From Polytrichum commune (Eukaryota > Streptophyta > Polytrichopsida > Polytrichales > Polytrichaceae), in NCBI GenBank assembly GCA_950295325.1, contig OX485809.1, positions 16,740,001 through 16,804,000 of the forward strand: 64,000 bases of DNA, given 5' to 3'. Below, in pieces: positions 14,126-59,662 of this stretch; the stretch's first letter is position 1; each line of letters starts with the position of its first letter. The translations under genes and the position numbers were made by a program. Below the pieces are notes generated by a model that was not told where the DNA came from, made no database searches, and saw nothing but the letters and a program-made list of their open reading frames with translations.

Positions 14126-14243
14126 GTGTCACAGCCATACTAAAACTACTACTAGATCCTATGAGAACTCTAAACTTAAGCACCTTTGGACCACAATAAT
14201 ACTTGGATGGGTGACCTCCCAGGAAATCCCGGTGCTACATCCA
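14126..14243 (+). pseudogene. 5S rRNA-derived pseudogene (possibly the head of a 5S-type SINE)
   Basis: The stretch aligns nearly without gaps to the whole length of plant 5S rRNA. The internal promoter C box is preserved (GGATGGGTGACCTCC, then CAGGAAATCC). The A-box region reads ACTTAAGCACC, where the gene has AGTTAAGCGTG. GATCCTATGAGAACTC corresponds to GATCCCATCAGAACTC. Substitutions elsewhere, especially in the 5' third, mean it is not a working gene. It is a lone copy, not a tandem 5S unit. It could be a retroposed 5S copy or a SINE3-like head; I could not find a shared tail. Confidence 0.8.
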
Positions 14244-14396: not shown

Positions 14397-16122
14397 CAGT
14401 AGGGTCCAAAAATATTTCAAATTTTGGATGTACTCCCAGTTTTGTGCTTCAAAACTAGTTGCATTCAATTGCATGTAGCTACCTCATTATACATTCTTTT
14501 TTCACCAAATCAATTGCAACTTGTGAAGCCATTAGTGGTCTTTAGTCACCACCACTTAATCATGAGCACATGTCAAAAATTTAAAGATTTGGTTGTAATT
14601 AGAAATTTGTGTTATCAAGAGCTCAAACATGCAACTTCCCTTTTGGAGCTCGTGGCGTCACGTCGTTGTTTTGATGGCATGTATTCATTGCAAGGTTTAG
14701 TGTATAGAGTTCAAGATTACAATGTGGAGTGTCATTGCAATGGAGATTGGCTTGCACATATGAGATATGGTGGCTTGAAGTTGTTTTGGAGGTAGTTTGG
14801 CAAGCAACATTGGAGTTGCCTTTGTTGTTATGTTGGTGATTGAATCTATTGATTTTTAGATTGTGCATTGGGTCATTGAGAGGTACCATGCCATACAAAA
14901 TCTTGAGTGATGAAGAAAGGGGTTGCATTGTGGGAATGTGTGAGGGTAGAATGAATGAAGAGTTTAGACATTGCATTTGTATTGAATGTTTCACGGTCAA
15001 TTGTTTCTACTATCTTGACAAATTGGAAGGTCCGAGGGAGTATAGAATCTTTGAAACCCTGATGTGGTAGGCATTGGAAGTTGAGTGATAGTGATGCTAG
15101 AATGTTGGCACATTATGTTAGAGATGATAGAAGACAATCATTGTCGAAATTATCAAGCCTATTGAATGTGAGTCGTAACACAACAGAGTCGTACTTACAT
15201 GACTTGGGTTTTAGAAATTGCATTGCACCAAAAGAACCATATTTTAGTAAGAAGCACAAATCAGATAGGCTTAAGTTTGCCCGTGCTCATGAAGGCTTGA
15301 GTTGTGAAGATTGGAGCAATGTGATTTGGTCAAATGAGTCATCATTTGAAATTGGTAAAAATTCAAGGCAAATTAGAGTGTGGCGAAGACCATACGAAAG
15401 ATATGCATGGGATTGCATAGCTCGAGTCTTTAGGAGTGGCCATACTTTGGTGATGGTTTGGGGTGCATTTATTGGCTTTGATAAATGTCCTCTTGTTACT
15501 ATGCCTCCAAACAAAAGAACAACAAGAGATTTTGTAACCATTGTTTAAGAGGTAGCATTAAGTGGATTTTACTTTTTACATGATCACTTTGAACAATTGA
15601 AACTCATGGAAGATGGTGCTCCACTCCACCGTAGATCAATTACGTTGCAATGGAGACAAGCTCATGCTTTGGTGAAACTAATTTGGTGTGCAAACTCTTC
15701 ATATTTGAATCCCATAGAAAATTTATGGAAGATTGTCAAAGATTTGTTACGACATCGTCCTAGACCCAAAATAAAGGAGGAAATGGCACAAACCATTCAA
15801 TTAACATGGGATACAATATCTTTGGAGCAACTCCAAACTTTGATTAGAACTATGCTTCTTAGAATGCAAGCAGTTATTTTAGCAAGAGGTGGTAGCACTA
15901 GATGATAGATACTATATTATGATAATTTTTTTTAAATTATGATTTTCTACTGTTGTAATGCAAATTTTTCATATTGTCAAAGTAGACTTTTTTATCTTTC
16001 CATCACAATTTACAGTTTGTGAATTGATAAATTTTTTAGCATGCAAGAGGTTTTCAAAGTTTGTAGTTTTCATTCTCATTCAACTCCAAGTCAAAAATTC
16101 GGAATATTTTTGGACTCTACTG
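14397..16122 (+). mobile_element. Tc1-type DNA transposon, 1726 bp, TIRs and TA duplication
   Basis: The ends are inverted repeats starting CAGTAGGGTCCAAAAATATT (left) and CAGTAGAGTCCAAAAATATT (right, inverted), about 29 bp with three mismatches. A TA dinucleotide flanks each side (14395-14396 and 16123-16124). The CAGT start, the TA target and the length fit Tc1 elements. A single decayed transposase lies inside. Confidence 0.92.
14888..15905 (+). pseudogene. Tc1-like transposase, DD34E class, inactivated
   Basis: The N-terminal helix-turn-helix part starts MPYKILSDEERGCIVGM at 14888. The frame shifts between about 15040 and 15066, after which GRHWKLSDSDARML continues in another frame. The catalytic core has WSNVIWSNESSF (15318-15353), RVWRRPYERY, MVWGAF, EDGAPLHRR and SSYLNPIENLW. 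An in-frame TAA at 15546-15548 splits the core, but the frame is unchanged on both sides. The first catalytic aspartate is replaced by Asn (codon 15333-15335). The second (15612-15614) and the Glu (15717-15719) are present with 34 residues between them, the DD34E spacing of Tc1. With a frameshift, a stop and a lost Asp it cannot work. Confidence 0.9.
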
Positions 16123-19468: not shown

Positions 19469-22094
19469 TCAACTCACTCGTCGATCAAAGTGGAGCTTAG
19501 GAAGTGGCTTCATCTGCACACTTTCTGGATCAGACTCAAGGATGAGAGGATCATAGCCGACACGTTTCGAGCCACTCAGCTTTGCCACCAATGCAAATGC
19601 CAAAACTGAAAACAATGCCACACAGATAACATGACAGTTGAATGCCAAGTCCATAAGTGCCACTGCCCGAACCCTTGCTACTTCTACATCACAAATTGTA
19701 GAGCCATCAATTCCAGTGGGAAGGTCAAGTCTGTAATGGCATCCTTGTGGGATGTACTCCTCCACATAAAGGAAGAGTCCAATCTGGAAGAGCCAAGTGC
19801 CTTGCAAAATAATCGCCATGCACAGCACTACATCCACCAGAAACAATTTCGGTCGTAGTGCAAGGATGCCTGTCATGTACACAATTCCCCCGTCAAAATG
19901 CTTCCTGGTACTCTCAGAGTCAATCTAGCACCAGAAATCTGACAACCTTGCGAGAACCAATCAAGCAAAAGAAACATCATGCTCTGTTAAACTACTCTTA
20001 TCAAGATTGCTTGCGAGAACCAGCACCCATAGTCTAAAATAAGTACCACACAAATCTTGCATTTTATAGCCTAATCAAGAAACAGATAGGTTTTGGCTAC
20101 ATAAAACCTTGTTCACCCTTTGTCTTCCCCCTCAATTGCTGGAATGTTTTGTGAATTTCAAAAAAGAAAATGGTTTTACACTTGGATTCAGTAAATCCAG
20201 ACTCTTGCCTATTCACTAAATGTTAAATACATCCATGTGCAAGATATAAGCATCAAAATATGCTTGAAAGGCATCTGTTCTCTACCCACATTGCAAACCT
20301 TTCACAACAATGCTTTAATCAGCTAAACTTCCTTTTGCATGAATTTTTCATTAATACATTCTCCATGCCGCACTTCTTGCAATGACAAAGCTGATGAGCT
20401 CAGTTGGAAAAGTAGAATACTGGAAAGCTCAATTTGAGAGGATTTAAACTATCTGATTCATGTTGCTAAGCTACTTCTGCATCCCTTAATAGCATGCCCA
20501 TCATAATCCAACTATCAATGGAACGAAATTAACTTCAGTCAATGTATATTGAACGATTCACATACTGTTGGTAGGGAGAGTGCCAACTATCTTTGGGTCT
20601 TCAATTTGGTGGACTTTGAACGGGTTGTGGAGGTTATATTTTTTATCCCAAACTATAGGGTATAAGGTAATTAGAAAGAGAACTTAGACTTCGATACCCA
20701 GCTGATTATGTTCAATGGTGTGTAGGTGATACCATAATATTTGCAACAGTGAATGTGCAAATATCAAGTGAGTATCAATATTGGCATTGAATAATGTGAT
20801 ACCATCCAAGTCAGGTATATAATACCCACAGACATAACCATATTGATACCCAGATTATCCTAATATCCGCACAACAACATTGCTATGAACCATTATAGTT
20901 CATGTGCCTAGTACCTACTGATGAATTTTGAACCCTATATAAACCAGAGACATAGCGACTTCAGATTTCCTTACCTGAATTTACTGAGAACACGGCAGTG
21001 GCACCCAGCTGATCAAGGCATTAAAATTATTGGAAAATGTCCAATGTATAGTGAAGCATTTAATTTTACAAAGGTATACGTGCACATATCAAGTGGGTAT
21101 CAATATTGGTATTGAAGGATATGATACCCAGTTAGGTCGGGTATTTCATACCTATACATGATACCCTAATAGATACCCGACCTGATCCTCCTATAAACCA
21201 TTGTAGTTCGGTTGCCTACTCATGTATTTTCAACCCATAATCAACCTGGCGATCATAGAGACTTCATATTTCCTTCCCATGGTGCATGTGCAAGTATCAA
21301 TCTCGGCATTGAGAAATGTGATACCCGCCGGGCCCAGCATTTATACCCATACCCTTACTGATACCCGGGTTGATCCTCATACCCGAACAAATTTGCTATG
21401 AACCATTGTAGATCGTCTGCCTACTGAATTTTAAACCCTACATAAACCTGGTAACGATAGAGACTTCAGATTTCCTTGCCTGCCTTCACAAAAAACTAAG
21501 TGGTCATCCATCCATACCCTCCCAGAAAAACCTAACAAATCTCTGGAAAAAAAAGAAACGTAGCAAAAGGGAAAGGAATCTCGTACCAGCACTAACTGCA
21601 CACAACCCTGCAATGTATGCAAGCAAGAGGTTGCATTGACTCTCCAGCCCCGTATTCCGAGCTGCCTGATGCGCCACCGAAATCCACTCCAACGCAAACG
21701 CCAAGCTCGCGAACAAAAACGAAGTGTCAACGGGCAACGGCAACACTGCCGTGGTCTCGCTCAGCAGCACAATCGCCGCATACATCCAGAACATAACCAA
21801 CGTCGTGGAATGCTCGAAGCTCGTCACCCTGTTCTTAGGGATGACTCCATCCACCAAGGGTCGAAAGCTCGTGGACACTCCGAGCTCGTAGAAGACCGCC
21901 ACGGGAATGAATACCACCAAAAGGTACAGCTCAATGTGCTTAAGCCGTGATGGCAACCAGCTCACATAATGCCATGATTTGGCTACATACTCCCTCGGTG
22001 ACCTCACGTAGCTTGCGAATGACGAAAACAGATGCCATATCCCAACCAACACAAAAACCACCGAAGGTGCGATGTGCCCTACCAGTGTCCCCAT
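19469..22094 (-). CDS. TMEM45/DUF716 family multi-pass membrane protein, two exons
   Basis: Exon 1 is 22094-21587 and exon 2 is 19869-19469. The 1717-bp intron has donor GTACGA and acceptor ATGACAG, in phase, giving 302 residues. I chose the ATG at 22094 because the family typically begins MGTLVGH. The upstream in-frame extension lacks an ATG close by. About seven hydrophobic segments are visible: GTLVGHIAPSVVFVLVGIW, HIELYLLVVFIPVAVFYELG, STTLVMFWMYAAIVLL, FLFASLAFALEWISVA, LLLAYIAGLCAVSAGILAL (built across the splice), VDVVLCMAIILQGTWLFQIG and FNCHVICVALFSVLAFALVA. EHSTT, LQGTW and YIPQGCHY are family landmarks. The biochemical role is unknown; some plant members are linked to pathogen or stress responses. 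A minus-strand AATAAA at 19421-19416 may end the transcript. The family is fairly certain, the function not. Confidence 0.88.
20753..21486. repeat. Three degenerate ~205-bp repeats in the DUF716 intron
   Basis: Units start near 20753, 21076 and 21284. They share a TATCAA...GGCATTGA stretch, several GATACCC motifs, CTATGAACCATTRTAG, a CCTACTnATG...AACCC segment and GACTTCAGATTTCCTT. The first unit is separated from the second by about 90 bp of other sequence. The repeats account for nearly half the intron. No coding potential is seen. Confidence 0.75.
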
Positions 22095-24680
22095 CCTGAA
22101 TCCCTTTCCAACACTCTCAAACTCCAACCCCTAGAAATACCAAACCTCCATCCCCCTGTTAGACCTTTTGTTCCCTCCACTTCACCATCATCACCATCTC
22201 AAATTGCATTGTGCACAACCACGTTGTACATTTCACAATTTGCCACCATATATCCTACCACATCCTGTCCTCTGATAAAGCCACCATATTATGAACCCCC
22301 TCCCTCCCTAATTTTTGTGTAAATCTTTCTTTGTGATGCCTGCAAGACAGGAAAGTCAGATGTTAGTTTTGCATACGATTTGACATAGCCTACCACAACT
22401 GACACATCCAGCCTTGTGATGACGTTTCCATGTAAGTGAATGCAAGCACTGTGAGTAGGTAAGTACCTACCAGAGAGCTTCTTTCGAAGATTTCGAAGGA
22501 AGAGATTGTTGAGGGAGCAAATGAAGAAGAAGAAGAAGAAGCAGAAACCCTAAGTTCATGAGGAAGGCTTGAGTGAAGAAGAGTGCATTATTATGAGTGG
22601 ATTGCTCTGAATGGGTAGCCATAGCCCTCGGACCAAGACGAAGACCCACTCGTGCATTCTTTTTGACCAGCTGCCACACTGATAAGTTATTATTCCCCAA
22701 GTAATAATAAGGTAATAATAAGGTGTGAGTGTGTGTGTGGCACTAGTGTCATTTGGTGAGTGCACCTATTGTGGACACTTTTTGGGTTTTTGCATCATAT
22801 GTATATAGGGGTCGGATAACAAAATCATAAAGCACATGAGCACATCCAAATGATGAACACGAAAGTTGAGCTTCATCACCGATCGCTCATCCAAGGGCAT
22901 AAGGGTTATCATAATCTATCATGAACTTTCATCCACGGAGACGTGATGTCTTCAATGATTCTCATGTTCTCTTCATGAGTTCATTGGTCATGACTAATAA
23001 CCAGCTCGAGTAGGTGGTGACTCACTGCTCCCACGGCTTGCCTTGTACTCTTCTCTCTCTCTGATTATCCAGTTCATAACACTACTCAACAACTTTATGT
23101 TGCACCCTTGCTTGATTGAGAGCTTCAGATCAAAGAATAGAGATACGCTAACATCCCGACTTTGCCTTCAAGGTAGGTCCGATCCCTTGATTAAATTAAG
23201 CCAACAACAGTTGGTGTGGAGGCTACCCCTAGGCCGTGCCAACGTCAACCCTGTGTGTTGGCAGGTTGGTGGCTAAGTCACCACCAAGAAGAGCCAACAG
23301 GCACGGGCCTTTTACGCATCCAGCTATTGGTGTTACTCCCTTCAATGAGCTACAATGTTCATGTTGTATGGGCATCTCATAAATAAAGGGGGCATAATGA
23401 CTGCATGATATTTGACCCCACATAGCAGTGCAAAGTTGTTGAGTAATGATATGTTGTTGTTTATGAGGTCAAAATGAGCATTTTATGAAGTCTTGAATAA
23501 AAATTCATAATTGACCTGCATAAAATTTCTTCGAGATATGTACCGTTTCATGCTTGAATATGTAACTATAAGTTGTAAATCATTTATAGGTCACAATATA
23601 TGATAGGTGCATTGACCTTATTGTGGACACTCACAAACAAATTTAGGTCGTTGGACCACATTGGGAATTGTTACATCCCATTTGTAATAGCAAATCACGT
23701 AGCTTGTCGTTGCAAGTCTCGTTTTGTGATGCAAAAGTTTTAAGAGGTCAAAGTGAACATTCTATTTCTCTCTGAACGATCACATGCATAGACCATCATT
23801 ATTATGTTCACTTTTGATTCTATATTGGTGCACAACACCTTGACCCAACAAGACTATAAAGTTAGCAAGATGACCTTCAAGTCAAGCCCCAATGAAGAAG
23901 ACATGTTGGACTTTCATTGGCTTATGAGTGGGTTGAACCTAAGGCCTTGTGACACCAAAACTTAGGTTTTACCACTAGACCAATATTTTTGTGTTCACTA
24001 TTGAACCCATGATTATATCTATTTATTGATCGCATGGTTCAATCTCATCATAATGTGTGTATCTTTTTAGCATCCGCTCTTCAATCAATTTTTTACCAAA
24101 TACTACTCAAATACTTGTGTCTTGTTAAGAAAGGAAGCGACCACATAAGGAACAAACAATTGTGGACACTTCCAACTCATCTTGCAAGTTGGATAGTTAG
24201 ATCTCATAAGAAATTGTCTCATCCGGTTAGGAATTACAAATCATACACATTGTTAATTACGTTGTATATTCAAAGTTGAGATACAAAATTTGTAAGAGGT
24301 CGAAGTGAAAAAATCACACTTCCTTCAATGGTCACATAAGTCTTCCATGTTGTGTGAAAATTTAGAATATTGAATGGGTTGGGTATTTTTGGAAAATATT
24401 ACTTCAATCTCATTGTAAAACATGTATTTTCCACGTGAAGGGCTTGGCAGTAAAACCAAGCCTTGCAACTTCTATGAATGAGATAATTTCCTAGTATATC
24501 ATCATAGATTTTCATAATTTGAAACAAAACACCAAATCATGAAGGAACAAATGAAAATGTTGTGTCATATTTACATGCAACTTTTTCCCACTGGAAAAAA
24601 CATATGAAGGACAGTTCAAGTTTGCTAAAACCCCCAAGCCACTTCAAGTGCATTTGGGGGGGAGGTATATATGATTCCAT
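22095..24680. other. Intergenic, possible promoter of the DUF716 gene; no gene seen
   Basis: The first few hundred bases upstream of 22094 should contain the DUF716 promoter (minus strand). A GAA microsatellite lies at about 22525-22542. A stretch near 22770-23210 with a TATATAGGGG box might be a lone LTR, but I could not find its partner or target duplication. The rest is AT-rich without a gene. Confidence 0.4.
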
Positions 24681-25486: not shown

Positions 25487-25850
25487 AGATAGATAGATAG
25501 AAACTCCAACCCCTTTCAAGCAAGGGGCCGGCGTGAATAAAGTGTCCATTCGTAATGCCAATGACCCGATGCCCACTGGACAAGGGGACATTGGGACAAA
25601 TACTACTCTCCCCTTTCGAGGATGGACACTATAGTGACATACTATACAAGTTCCTAGCTAGCCACTAGTGCCTTGAAGATACCGGACATGGTATCCCCCC
25701 AAAGGGCTTTGAGGTACCCATACAACAAGGTCCAAGGACCCCCCACCATAGTTGGGTAGACTAAGGTGGTGAGCACCATGCTGGCATGGGGAATAGAACC
25801 CACATCCTCCTCATTGGGGGTCATGAGCCCTAACCACCAAGCCAATGTTA
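25487..25850 (-). mobile_element. tRNA-derived SINE, long copy 1
   Basis: Read on the minus strand it starts with a tRNA-like head: TGGCTTGGTGGTTAGGG (A box) and GGGTTCTATTCCCC (B box). It ends with GGCCCCTTGCTTGAAAGGGG, then TTGGAGTTTC and (TATC)n. The body is almost identical to the copy at 59288-59662, for example GATACCATGTCCGGTATC and CTTCAAGGCACTAGTGGC. The 5' limit is uncertain and no clear target duplication was found. Confidence 0.85.
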
Positions 25851-34498: not shown

Positions 34499-34564
34499 TT
34501 CCCACAGGCGTGAAGTTAGGAATTTTTTAAGACAGTTTGAGTTATATATAATGTCTTGGGATCG

Positions 34565-34674
34565 ATCCCCTTGTCTGGCGGGCATCGGGTCATTTGACAA
34601 TACAAACGGACATTTCATTCATGCTGGCCCCTTAAATTGGGACCGGAGTTTCTATCTATATATCTATCTATCTA
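34565..34674 (+). mobile_element. 5'-truncated SINE copy, 110 bp
   Basis: The 11-bp direct repeat TCTTGGGATCG flanks it (34554-34564 and 34675-34685). The insert holds the SINE end: CATTTCATTCATGCTGGCCC, then a short hairpin, GGACCGGAGTTTC and a (TATC)n tail. The tRNA-like head is missing. Confidence 0.85.
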
Positions 34675-34974
34675 TCTTGGGATCGGACTCGAGTGGGCCA
34701 TTGAGTTGGCTAAAAATGCAATTCGAGAGGCCTAATCGTAGAGTCCTTCAAGTTTTCTTTAGGCGTAAATTAACATGTTCAATGAGTGGTAGTGTCACGC
34801 GATTAAAAACTGGATGTCTAGCTAGTTATACTGGGATGGATGGGCCAAGCTAATTTTGCATAGGTTGATCTGGGATTAAGGGCGATGAGCTTCATGTGCA
34901 CATCTTATTTTCAATCTCAAAGTTTCCAAGATGGCAACATGAGGTCCAAGGAGTTTCACTTACCTTTGAAATAT

Positions 34975-45420: not shown

Positions 45421-47859
45421 AAGTGAACATTGTTTGCATCAAACAAATATTTAAACAAAAGGAAAACACAAAGAAACACTTACAACAACCAAATGTGCAC
45501 TCGGACACCTCCAATGCCTTGAAGTGACAACTCCTCAAGATCCACTCCACAACCTCAAAGCAATCAAATTTAAAGGCACTTCACTTGTATGCGTGGGCCC
45601 AAATCTATTATAACTAATAGGATTAGAGCAATCGAATGCTCCACCTTCAACACTTTCAAGTAGTGTCATAAACTGATACAAAGTCCTTTATACATACCAT
45701 AGCCTAAAGAATCGCTCCTTGTTGTAAAGAACATAACCACTAGTCCTCTCAACTAGGGTAGAATGATATGAATATGGATGAGTCCATAATCCTTAATACA
45801 TTTTAAGATAATTGTCCTCTTGGGCAAAGTTAAAAGAATAGTGTCTTTGGGTCTCTCGAAAGAAAGAAAGAAAGAAAGGGGAAAAAAAAAAAAAAACACA
45901 TGCACACTCACACACACACCTACTCTTTTCTTCCATCTCACTTAGTATGTTTCTTGGGGCTACAACCCTTCCTATCAAACCATAGTCTTTCAAAGTCTTC
46001 CTTTCTCTATCTCCTAGGCTATGGCCTAGATCTTGGCACAAGTTATTTCTTTTAATTTATTTTCACATTTTTTTCTCATTGAAGCAAAAAATCCAAAATT
46101 TGACTCTATAGAAGGTATGCTTGTGTACATTGATTTCCTCTCTCTATTCATGGTCCATGGGTTTTAGATTTCTTATAAAGTCCATATTAAGTTAGATGGG
46201 TGTTAAATGTTTGCGTTTTCAAACTAACCCACTTATCCTTGACATGAAACATGCAATTGGTGCGAGATGGTGCACTATCCTCATAACTTCTGGGGGTCAT
46301 AGGGATATCTTCTTCAATATCAAATTGAATAAAATATAACATGTAATAATGTCTCAATGAGCCTCACAACCCATTGCCACACCATTTTCTTGCACTCACA
46401 TGATATGAGATATTTCGCATTCGTATTGTGTCGTTGCTCTTGGTTGAACTCGTCGTTGTTCCACTTAATCCCAATGGTCCACAAAGTGATGCAACATGGA
46501 AAATGCCAAAATTTATATTTGAATAAAACTAGGCCAAGGTCCAATTTATTATAACAACATGTTGAATTGTATAGTAGGAACATTCGGTAAGTTCTTCATG
46601 GGTAATAATCATCATGTTAAAATGTCAATTATTTGATTAGATCCCAAACCACAATTTGTTTGAAATTATAGTCAACCAAGAGGAGATTCTTCCATTTTCG
46701 ATTGCAAGGGGAGGGCTAGAAATGTAATTTGTGAGGATTTGTTTTACCAAAATTAGTGGTGTAGTCTAAGAAAACAACGTTCTCCAACTGTTTTAATCTA
46801 GCGTAAACCCATTGTAAGGTAAATCCTTTGCCATAGGAGTGTCAATGACGGACCTCATGAAAGTAATATTTACGACCGCCAAAATGATTAAGCTCGTCCA
46901 CTGTGCTCCTATAGTGGTGTCCCTTTGTGTAGCATTAGACTGAGAGTAATAAGGCGTATTGCACTACAATGATATACATGTGGTAGAGGGTGGCATACCA
47001 TTTTAAAGTCTACAATAGGGTCAGGTTGTCTTTCCCACTGTAGAGACTCGCCCAAGAACTTAATTTAGGGAGATCCTCATCCTCCTCCAAATAGGTTGTC
47101 GTTCGTTAAGGATACTAATAGTGAGATCCTTTTGCATATCATCTTCCACCAACTGGAAGCCAAACATTGTTCGTGCCTCTTGCCACAAAAAGGTACCCGT
47201 ATCCCAAACATCAAAGGTTGTTTAAAAACAATCCTTGGCTCCAATGTAGGAGCACGTGTTGCAAACAAAGTCAAGACATTTTGTCCACCAAATGTTGGCA
47301 CGAAAGACCCCACAAAGGTCACGTGGGGGAATATGCCTAAGTCCTACAACCACAATGTACCAAGCCTTGGAAACATGGCCACTAGGTTCAAACCCTCGAT
47401 GGGAACATAGTTGGGAGTCAAACTTGAAAAGATATCAAAGGCTTTCTAGGTTTGGGAGTTGGGGACACATCCTAGTCCCCAACTACCTCCATGTTGATGT
47501 TCGAAACTAGTGAGCATGTTTCCAAACCGGAGAGGTAGTCGGGGATTAGATGGGACCGGGTGTCATGCTTTCACTAGAATGATTTGTAGGTTAGGAGTCC
47601 TCGGTTGTAATGTTTGAATATTCCATTTGGTATGGAGGTTGGTCTTGGCCGCTTATGGGACACCAAATCCAAACCACCACACCTCTTTTTTCCTTACAAG
47701 AGTCCCTCCATGTGAGTTGCTATTTACCAAAGCAAAGGGTATTTCCTAATTACTCATATGATTTTAAAAGTAATTTGGGCACGCCCTACCCAAATTGTAA
47801 TAAAATACCATATGGTAGATAGCAAGATGTGGTTACCTATGTCCGGGAAGAACCGGCGG
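45421..47859. other. Intergenic, no gene seen
   Basis: Contains a GAAA repeat (about 45859-45879) followed by an A-run. The longest open frame (about 47096-47410) shows no recognisable motif. Confidence 0.5.
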
Positions 47860-53999: not shown

Positions 54000-54088
54000 A
54001 GCCATCTCCACCATTTCCAAAATTCCATGAATCCCTTGTCAGGCTCTGAAGGATATGATCCCCACTAAAAGTGTCTGCCTCTACTATT

Positions 54089-54132
54089 CACGCTGGCCCC
54101 TTGCTTGAAAGGGATTGGAGTTTCTATCTATT
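54089..54132 (+). mobile_element. 44-bp insertion made only of the SINE tail
   Basis: A perfect 17-bp direct repeat TGTCTGCCTCTACTATT flanks it (54072-54088 and 54133-54149). The insert is CACGCTGGCCCC, a short loop with the hairpin partner AAGGG, then ATTGGAGTTTC and TATCTATT. It is therefore an extremely 5'-truncated copy of the SINE, ending in the same tail. Confidence 0.85.
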
Positions 54133-54184
54133 TGTCTGCCTCTACTATTGCCACAATCATCCCCAAAACCAAACCGCCCCCTAA

Positions 54185-54480
54185 GCTTATTAGTTACAGA
54201 TGAACCGGTCGAGTTTGAGGAGTTGAAGACTTCGCAAAAACAAATTACCCATCGTTTCAAAAGAATTTAGAGAATATATGTCCAATTAATGAAGGGTCGG
54301 TGGAAGAGATCAACATGTGATTGGTTGGAGTTGAAGACTTCACGAAAATTACGCATCGTTTCAAAAGAATTTAGAGAATATACGTCCTTTTAATGAAAGG
54401 TCGGTGGAAGATAGCAACATGTAACTGGTTGGACTTGGAAACACTAGGATGTCGACCGGTCATGCCCAGAAATATCCCCA
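54185..54480 (+). repeat. Dispersed repeat related to 47860, with an internal duplication
   Basis: Begins GTTACAGATGAACCGGTC. Inside, GTTGAAGACTTC...CATCGTTTCAAAAGAATTT, AGAGAATATA and GGTCGGTGGAAGA occur twice, about 110 bp apart. It ends with CGACCGGTCATGCCC. The copy at 47860 has the segment once. Confidence 0.7.
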
Positions 54481-59287: not shown

Positions 59288-59662
59288 AAGAAAGAAAGAA
59301 AGAGAAACTCCGGTCCCTTTTTAGCAAGGGGCCGACGTGAATAAAGTGTCCGTTCGTAATGCCAGTGAACATGATGGCCACTGGACAAGGGGACACTGGG
59401 ACAATACTACTCTCCCCTTTCGAGGATGGACACTATGTGACACACTATACTAGTTCCTAGCTAGCCACTAGTGCCTTGAAGATACCGGACATGGTATCCC
59501 CCCAAAGGGCTTTGAGGTACCCATACAACAAGGTCCAAGGACCCCCCACCATAGTTGGGTGGACTAAGGTGGTGAGCACCACGCCGGCATGGGGAATAGA
59601 ACCCACAACCTCCTCATTGGGGGCCATGAGCCTAACCACCAAGCCAAGGCCCGTGGTGCCCT
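59288..59662 (-). mobile_element. tRNA-derived SINE, complete copy 2, 375 bp
   Basis: A perfect 12-bp direct repeat GAAGAGACTAGA flanks it (59276-59287 and 59663-59674). On the minus strand it starts AGGGCACCACGGGCC, has the A box TGGCTTGGTGGTTAGG and the B box GGGTTCTATTCCCC at tRNA-like spacing, and a body ending GGCCCCTTGC...AAGGGACCGG, AGTTTC and (TTTC)n. Boxes of this type would direct RNA polymerase III. Stop-free reading of its body in one frame is shared with copy 1 simply because the copies are alike. Confidence 0.92.

Follow-up and report, generated by a model that had tools for sequence, protein, structure and literature searches.

A 44-bp insert in Polytrichum commune is very probably a severely 5'-truncated SINE retrocopy, one of a series of ultrashort copies

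In the 64,000-nt stretch of Polytrichum commune DNA analysed here (the window), the 17-mer TGTCTGCCTCTACTATT occurs as an exact direct repeat at 54072-54088 and 54133-54149 on the forward strand, where an exact search found no third copy. These repeats are the 5' and 3' copies of a target-site duplication and enclose the 44-bp insert CACGCTGGCCCCTTGCTTGAAAGGGATTGGAGTTTCTATCTATT (54089-54132, +), which corresponds to a SINE consensus from position 324 to its end and comprises the terminal hairpin, GGAGTTTC and the tail TATCTATT. A preliminary description of this DNA had given the insert the same composition, and the match of the insert to the 3' end of a longer SINE copy at 25493-25535 (-), 95% over 43 bases, bears it out. 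The 17-mer ends in TATT, and these 4 bases match the SINE sequence TTTATTCACGC at consensus 320-323 as well, so that the SINE-derived part of the target measures 44 to 48 bp. The 3' end of the SINE is kept, its 5' end is lost and the direct repeat abuts both ends of the insert, as in the severely 5'-truncated retroposed copy that had been proposed. The target stem reads GGGA instead of GGGG and has a weaker predicted fold, at -9.2 kcal/mol.

When a 301-bp query from the locus was searched against the whole genome (64 contigs totalling 407.8 Mb), the SINE tail alone accounted for 39 of the 40 scored matches, from 412 candidates, and the remaining one was the target site itself; no second copy of the target flanks was present among these 40 matches. 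In the right flank of the target, at 54219-54437 (+), a unit of about 115 bp is present twice in neighbouring positions, the two copies being 86% alike, and more diverged copies of it occur in several other loci.

The parent is a SINE-like element of about 367 nt, whose consensus was written by eye from five long copies, four of which align to a common 5' end, while the fifth lacks about 12 nt there. Within the window, a nearly full-length copy of the target's SINE, without about 12 nt at its 5' end, lies at 25487-25845 (-), and TTTAGGG repeats, suggestive of a plant genome, adjoin it at 25845. The head of the consensus carries a box A-like TGGCTTGGTGG at position 15 and a box B-like GGTTCTATTCC at position 59, which we take to resemble the Pol III box A and box B consensus of tRNA-derived SINEs; ARAGORN called no tRNA in any of four full copies, and Rfam returned no tRNA match in the one copy searched. 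At the other end, the final 44 nt have a predicted folding energy of -19.1 kcal/mol, whereas base-shuffled sequences average -9.6 (sd 2.5), with about 1 of 500 shuffles as low (p 0.002). The commonest tail, TATCTATC, is found in 23 of the 62 sampled copies with a duplication of at least 10 bp.

Several SINE subfamilies share the terminal hairpin followed by GGAGTTTC. Two copies from other subfamilies lie in the window: a full-length relative of a diverged subfamily (GGGACCGGAGTTTC, CTTT tail) at 59293-59660 (-), and a 5'-truncated copy of a sister subfamily at 34554-34685 (+), whose 110-bp insert (34565-34674) stands between two copies of the 11-bp duplication TCTTGGGATCG (34554-34564 and 34675-34685). 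A sister group marked by GGGACCGG occurs in the same genome, and a search with GGAGTTTCTATCT, which excludes the 5' hairpin arm of the target's SINE, led to 97 places against 9 in the control; on inspection by eye, some 43 of these places carry CCCCTTTAAATAGGGACCGGAGTTTCTATCT, and about 14 seem to be truncated within the hairpin or immediately before it. The family may be unnamed: the first 12 of 739 papers listed for TATC-tailed SINEs include no plant SINE with such a tail, which is weak evidence of absence.

A 30-base pattern from the SINE tail matches 247 places in the genome with at most one mismatch, and its reversed control matches none. We examined the first 100 exact tail matches listed, running from contig C1 to early C4, a sample that under-represents old copies since an exact tail match selects young ones; identity to the consensus in this sample ranges from 95 to 100%, with a median of 98.9%. 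Half of the copies (50/100) are full length, starting at consensus 1-4, and the other 50 are 5'-truncated at scattered positions along the whole element. Duplications of at least 10 bp flank 62 of the 100 copies (35 of 50 full, 27 of 50 truncated), leaving 38 without one, and the commonest duplication length is 11-13 bp. When the upstream flank of one copy was paired with the downstream flank of another under the same repeat search rule, the longest repeat in 800 pairs was 9 bp (4 pairs). The perfect 17-bp duplication reported at the target is thus real and more than chance would give.

The truncation points are not spread evenly. Three clusters, at consensus 84-96 (9 of 50, 2.0 expected), 257-272 (9 of 50, 2.5 expected) and 293-305 (7 of 50, 2.0 expected), together hold 25 of the 50, and a scan test on the largest 12-nt cluster gave p 0.017. 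In the predicted structure, the first of them falls on the 3' border of the folded 5' domain, where stopping at a folded block would be expected to place it.

Very short copies were sought with patterns that required the tail and left the upstream sequence free. Of the 21 places found, nine, counting the target, hold an insert of 28-53 bp between perfect duplications of 11-17 bp. By increasing insert length they are L040 (28 bp, duplication 12 bp), L039 (33 bp, 12 bp), L041 (39 bp, 12 bp), L050 (42 bp, 14 bp), L055 (43 bp, 13 bp), the target (44 bp, 17 bp), L044 (44 bp, 16 bp), L052 (53 bp, 12 bp) and L054 (53 bp, 11 bp). The target is therefore neither alone nor the shortest, there being eight further such inserts of 28-53 bp with duplications of 11-16 bp, and the proposed check, a search for more copies of this small size flanked by direct repeats, gave a positive result. 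Their starts are scattered over the consensus from about 315 to 341; L039 and L040 begin in the loop of the hairpin and include its 3' arm alone, so a complete hairpin is not required in the cDNA. Nine is a lower bound, as the patterns miss copies with more mismatches.

Among the other places, two (L046, L053) are copies of 65-72 bp, and L043 and L059 are short pieces with no detectable duplication. L042, L047, L048, L051 and L057 were ruled out as ultrashort, being long copies with point changes, and L045, L049 and L056 are not the target's SINE. L094, a 58-bp piece of the 100-copy sample with a 9-bp duplication, was not counted because chance alone can give 9 bp. L046, L047 and L048 duplicate the entries L029, L073 and L074, respectively, and were excluded from the counts, as were L051 and L057.

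Full-length, truncated and ultrashort copies share a nick-site preference. This comparison used 79 copies with a duplication of at least 10 bp, odd ones removed: L123, L070 (28-bp repeat) and L026 (40-bp repeat) were set aside, the last also from the overlap counts below, while L026 and L070 do count among the 62 sampled copies with a duplication. A T opens the duplication in 36 of the 39 full-length copies, 24 of the 31 truncated ones and 8 of the 9 ultrashort ones, and a G stands directly ahead of it in 18, 15 and 5 of them, respectively, in flanks whose nearby composition is A 0.31, C 0.19, G 0.20 and T 0.30. The target site, AAAAG|TGTCTG, fits this preference. Annealing to the tail, the unit of which starts with T, may account for some of the excess of T.

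The 5' junction of the target has an overlap of 4 bp between the end of the duplication and the SINE, the TATT at 320-323, and L044 also has 4. For 43 truncated copies with a duplication of at least 9 bp, the mean overlap was 1.0 bp, while consensus positions drawn at random gave 0.69 (sd 0.16; p 0.031), and overlaps of at least 4 bp occurred in 4 of the 43 against 0.90 expected (p 0.0135). With the target removed, the mean falls to 0.93, and overlaps of at least 4 bp remain in 3 of 42; the 28 truncated copies of the 100-copy sample average 0.75 bp against 0.69 expected, no clear excess. Copies L002, L004, L005, L007, L008 and L126-L136 came from the whole-genome locus search, outside the 100-copy sample, and some of them are included in the 43-copy and 79-copy sets. 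Unmatched bases stand between the duplication and the element at 14 of the 43 junctions. The data thus point to a weak use of annealing at the 5' junction, resembling the weak use of microhomology at truncated human Alu copies reported by Kojima (2010; PMC2912911). Truncation is attributed, in PMC4760211, either to low processivity of the enzyme or to early joining by host repair, two views that the present junction data do not separate.

We put at roughly 0.9 the probability that the insert is a severely 5'-truncated SINE retrocopy, in which target-primed reverse transcription stopped early and the end of the cDNA was joined to the target. A LINE endonuclease would have nicked the bottom strand opposite AAAAG|TGTC, and the freed 3' end would have primed reverse transcription at the TATC tail. 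Synthesis would then have stopped or been interrupted some 44-48 nt along, slightly beyond the terminal hairpin; the end of the cDNA would have been joined to the upstream target end over the 4-bp overlap (TATT), and fill-in of the staggered ends would have left the 17-bp duplication. We infer the order of these events, an RNA template longer than the insert, and a putative LINE as the enzyme. That reverse transcription can stop after a few dozen bases, as the preliminary description held, is supported by the ultrashort copies with duplications.

The 4-bp overlap is what would remain if a full-length SINE had inserted and a later deletion between two TATT motifs, one at the end of the 5' duplication and one at SINE 320-323, had removed the first 323 nt, and full-length copies are common (50/100). 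Against this very unlikely course of events, the other eight ultrashort copies also have perfect duplications, with overlaps of 0-2 bp in seven of them (4 in L044; the measure is not meaningful for L040, L054 and L055, which have an unmatched base in the junction), and each would need a deletion ending exactly at its duplication. The truncation points, moreover, lie along the whole element, as early stopping predicts.

It is also very unlikely that the template had been a short 3' piece of the SINE RNA from the start and was copied all the way, in which case the insert would reveal what the enzyme is able to use. The target does begin just outside the terminal hairpin, and the unmatched bases at 14 of 43 junctions fit either route, but the ultrashort starts are scattered from about 315 to 341, the fragments giving L039 and L040, which start in the loop, would have lacked the hairpin, and the clusters at 84-96, 257-272 and 293-305 suit stopping on a longer, folded template. 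That the repeat arose by chance, or the insert as filler DNA at a repaired double-strand break, is extremely improbable: although two short pieces (L043, L059) lack a detectable duplication, no shuffled pair of flanks gave more than 9 bp against the 17 bp here, the duplication always directly adjoins the tail, and the site preference matches that seen in full copies.

A further claim of the preliminary description is that the insert marks the minimal sequence a LINE enzyme needs to recognise. This is not supported, since shorter copies exist (28, 33, 39, 42 and 43 bp) and an insert represents the cDNA synthesised rather than the RNA to which the enzyme bound. Were length read as recognition, the minimum would fall to 28 bases without the 5' arm of the hairpin, contradicting the picture from which the claim was drawn. 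If the hairpin counts, copy length is no measure of recognition, because the 28- and 33-bp copies hold its 3' arm only; the tail is present in copies of any length since it is where synthesis begins. The RNA may have to carry the hairpin, or more, for recognition, whatever the point at which its DNA copy ends. The length of the insert tells where synthesis stopped and sets no minimum for recognition. Retrocopies of this truncated kind, flanked by target duplications, are a familiar phenomenon. The observation was correct and neat and its mechanism ordinary, while the conclusion was over-read.

A search of the genome for the reverse transcriptase domain RVT_1 listed 150 matches out of 2620 candidates, of which about 40 were longer than 600 nt and were taken as LINE-type. 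Downstream of five of these (L137-L141; for L141, within 300 nt after the stop), neither TATCTATC nor GGAGTTTC with a tail was present, and two of the five have A runs after the frame. When reverse transcriptase places were compared by eye with SINE-tail places, one near pair emerged, on C1, where a reverse transcriptase at 4909017-4909688 has a tail at 4904604-4904633 on the same strand; it was rejected as the partner LINE because the tail is that of SINE copy L010. The window itself holds, at 46353-47840 (-), a broken LINE relic related, by tblastn pieces, to the L1-type L137 and L138; in the 2.2 kb below it there is no SINE-type tail, and a CTTT run is present. Locus L141 (1-3701 of G000:C5:33411300-33415300) encodes a LINE-type reverse transcriptase in an open frame of 2372 aa, followed in frame by RNase H (E 6.4e-15), and has a stretch resembling the PCIF1 WW-domain family (E 1.7e-6, below the curated cut-off) and a very weak chromo match; to judge from this reading frame, it is an unusual giant LINE.

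The human 5'-truncated Alu and L1 copies treated by Kojima (2010; PMC2912911) are like the present ones in keeping the 3' end and losing the 5' end, in having duplications mostly above 10 bp and in carrying extra nucleotides at some junctions. Unlike them, the moss copies end in (TATC)n rather than poly(A), and unlike the TT/AAAA site of L1, the first base of the duplication here is T, in many cases preceded by G and followed by G or A. A terminal hairpin followed by a short repeat tail recalls the stringent-type SINE/LINE pairs of Ohshima (2013; PMC3747384), except that no LINE with a common 3' end was found at the five places examined. In that review, flowering-plant L1 LINEs have (A)n or no repeat tail and RTE LINEs have (TTG)n or (TTGATG)n, and its table does not contain TATC. 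By description only, the sharing of a hairpin and GGAGTTTC among several subfamilies also resembles the Angio-domain superfamily of angiosperms (Seibt 2020, as described in a review, PMC9033089), in which a 37-bp 3' domain is conserved across several families.

As a tentative possibility, which we rate as somewhat unlikely, the (TATC)n tail, the shared terminal hairpin and GGAGTTTC would mark a SINE clan mobilised by an undescribed LINE that prefers G|TG sites; the ultrashort products of the clan, the smallest of 28 bp, would offer a natural series for mapping where the enzyme stops and how cDNA ends are joined. The hairpin, the TATC tail and the G|TG site provide a handle for finding that LINE. 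As little as 28-50 nt of cDNA is enough for an insertion to be completed with a full target duplication, and annotation that demands a tRNA-like head or a minimum length would probably miss such inserts. It is also tempting to read copy length as enzyme recognition, an interpretation corrected here, as length measures where synthesis stopped.

Elsewhere in the window, a lone 5S rRNA-like sequence, perhaps a stray copy, lies at 14127-14240 (+), scoring 43 bits against a gathering score of 38. A frame with a Tc3-type transposase helix-turn-helix follows at 15063-15545 (+), and two DUF716 frames occupy 19472-22130 (-).
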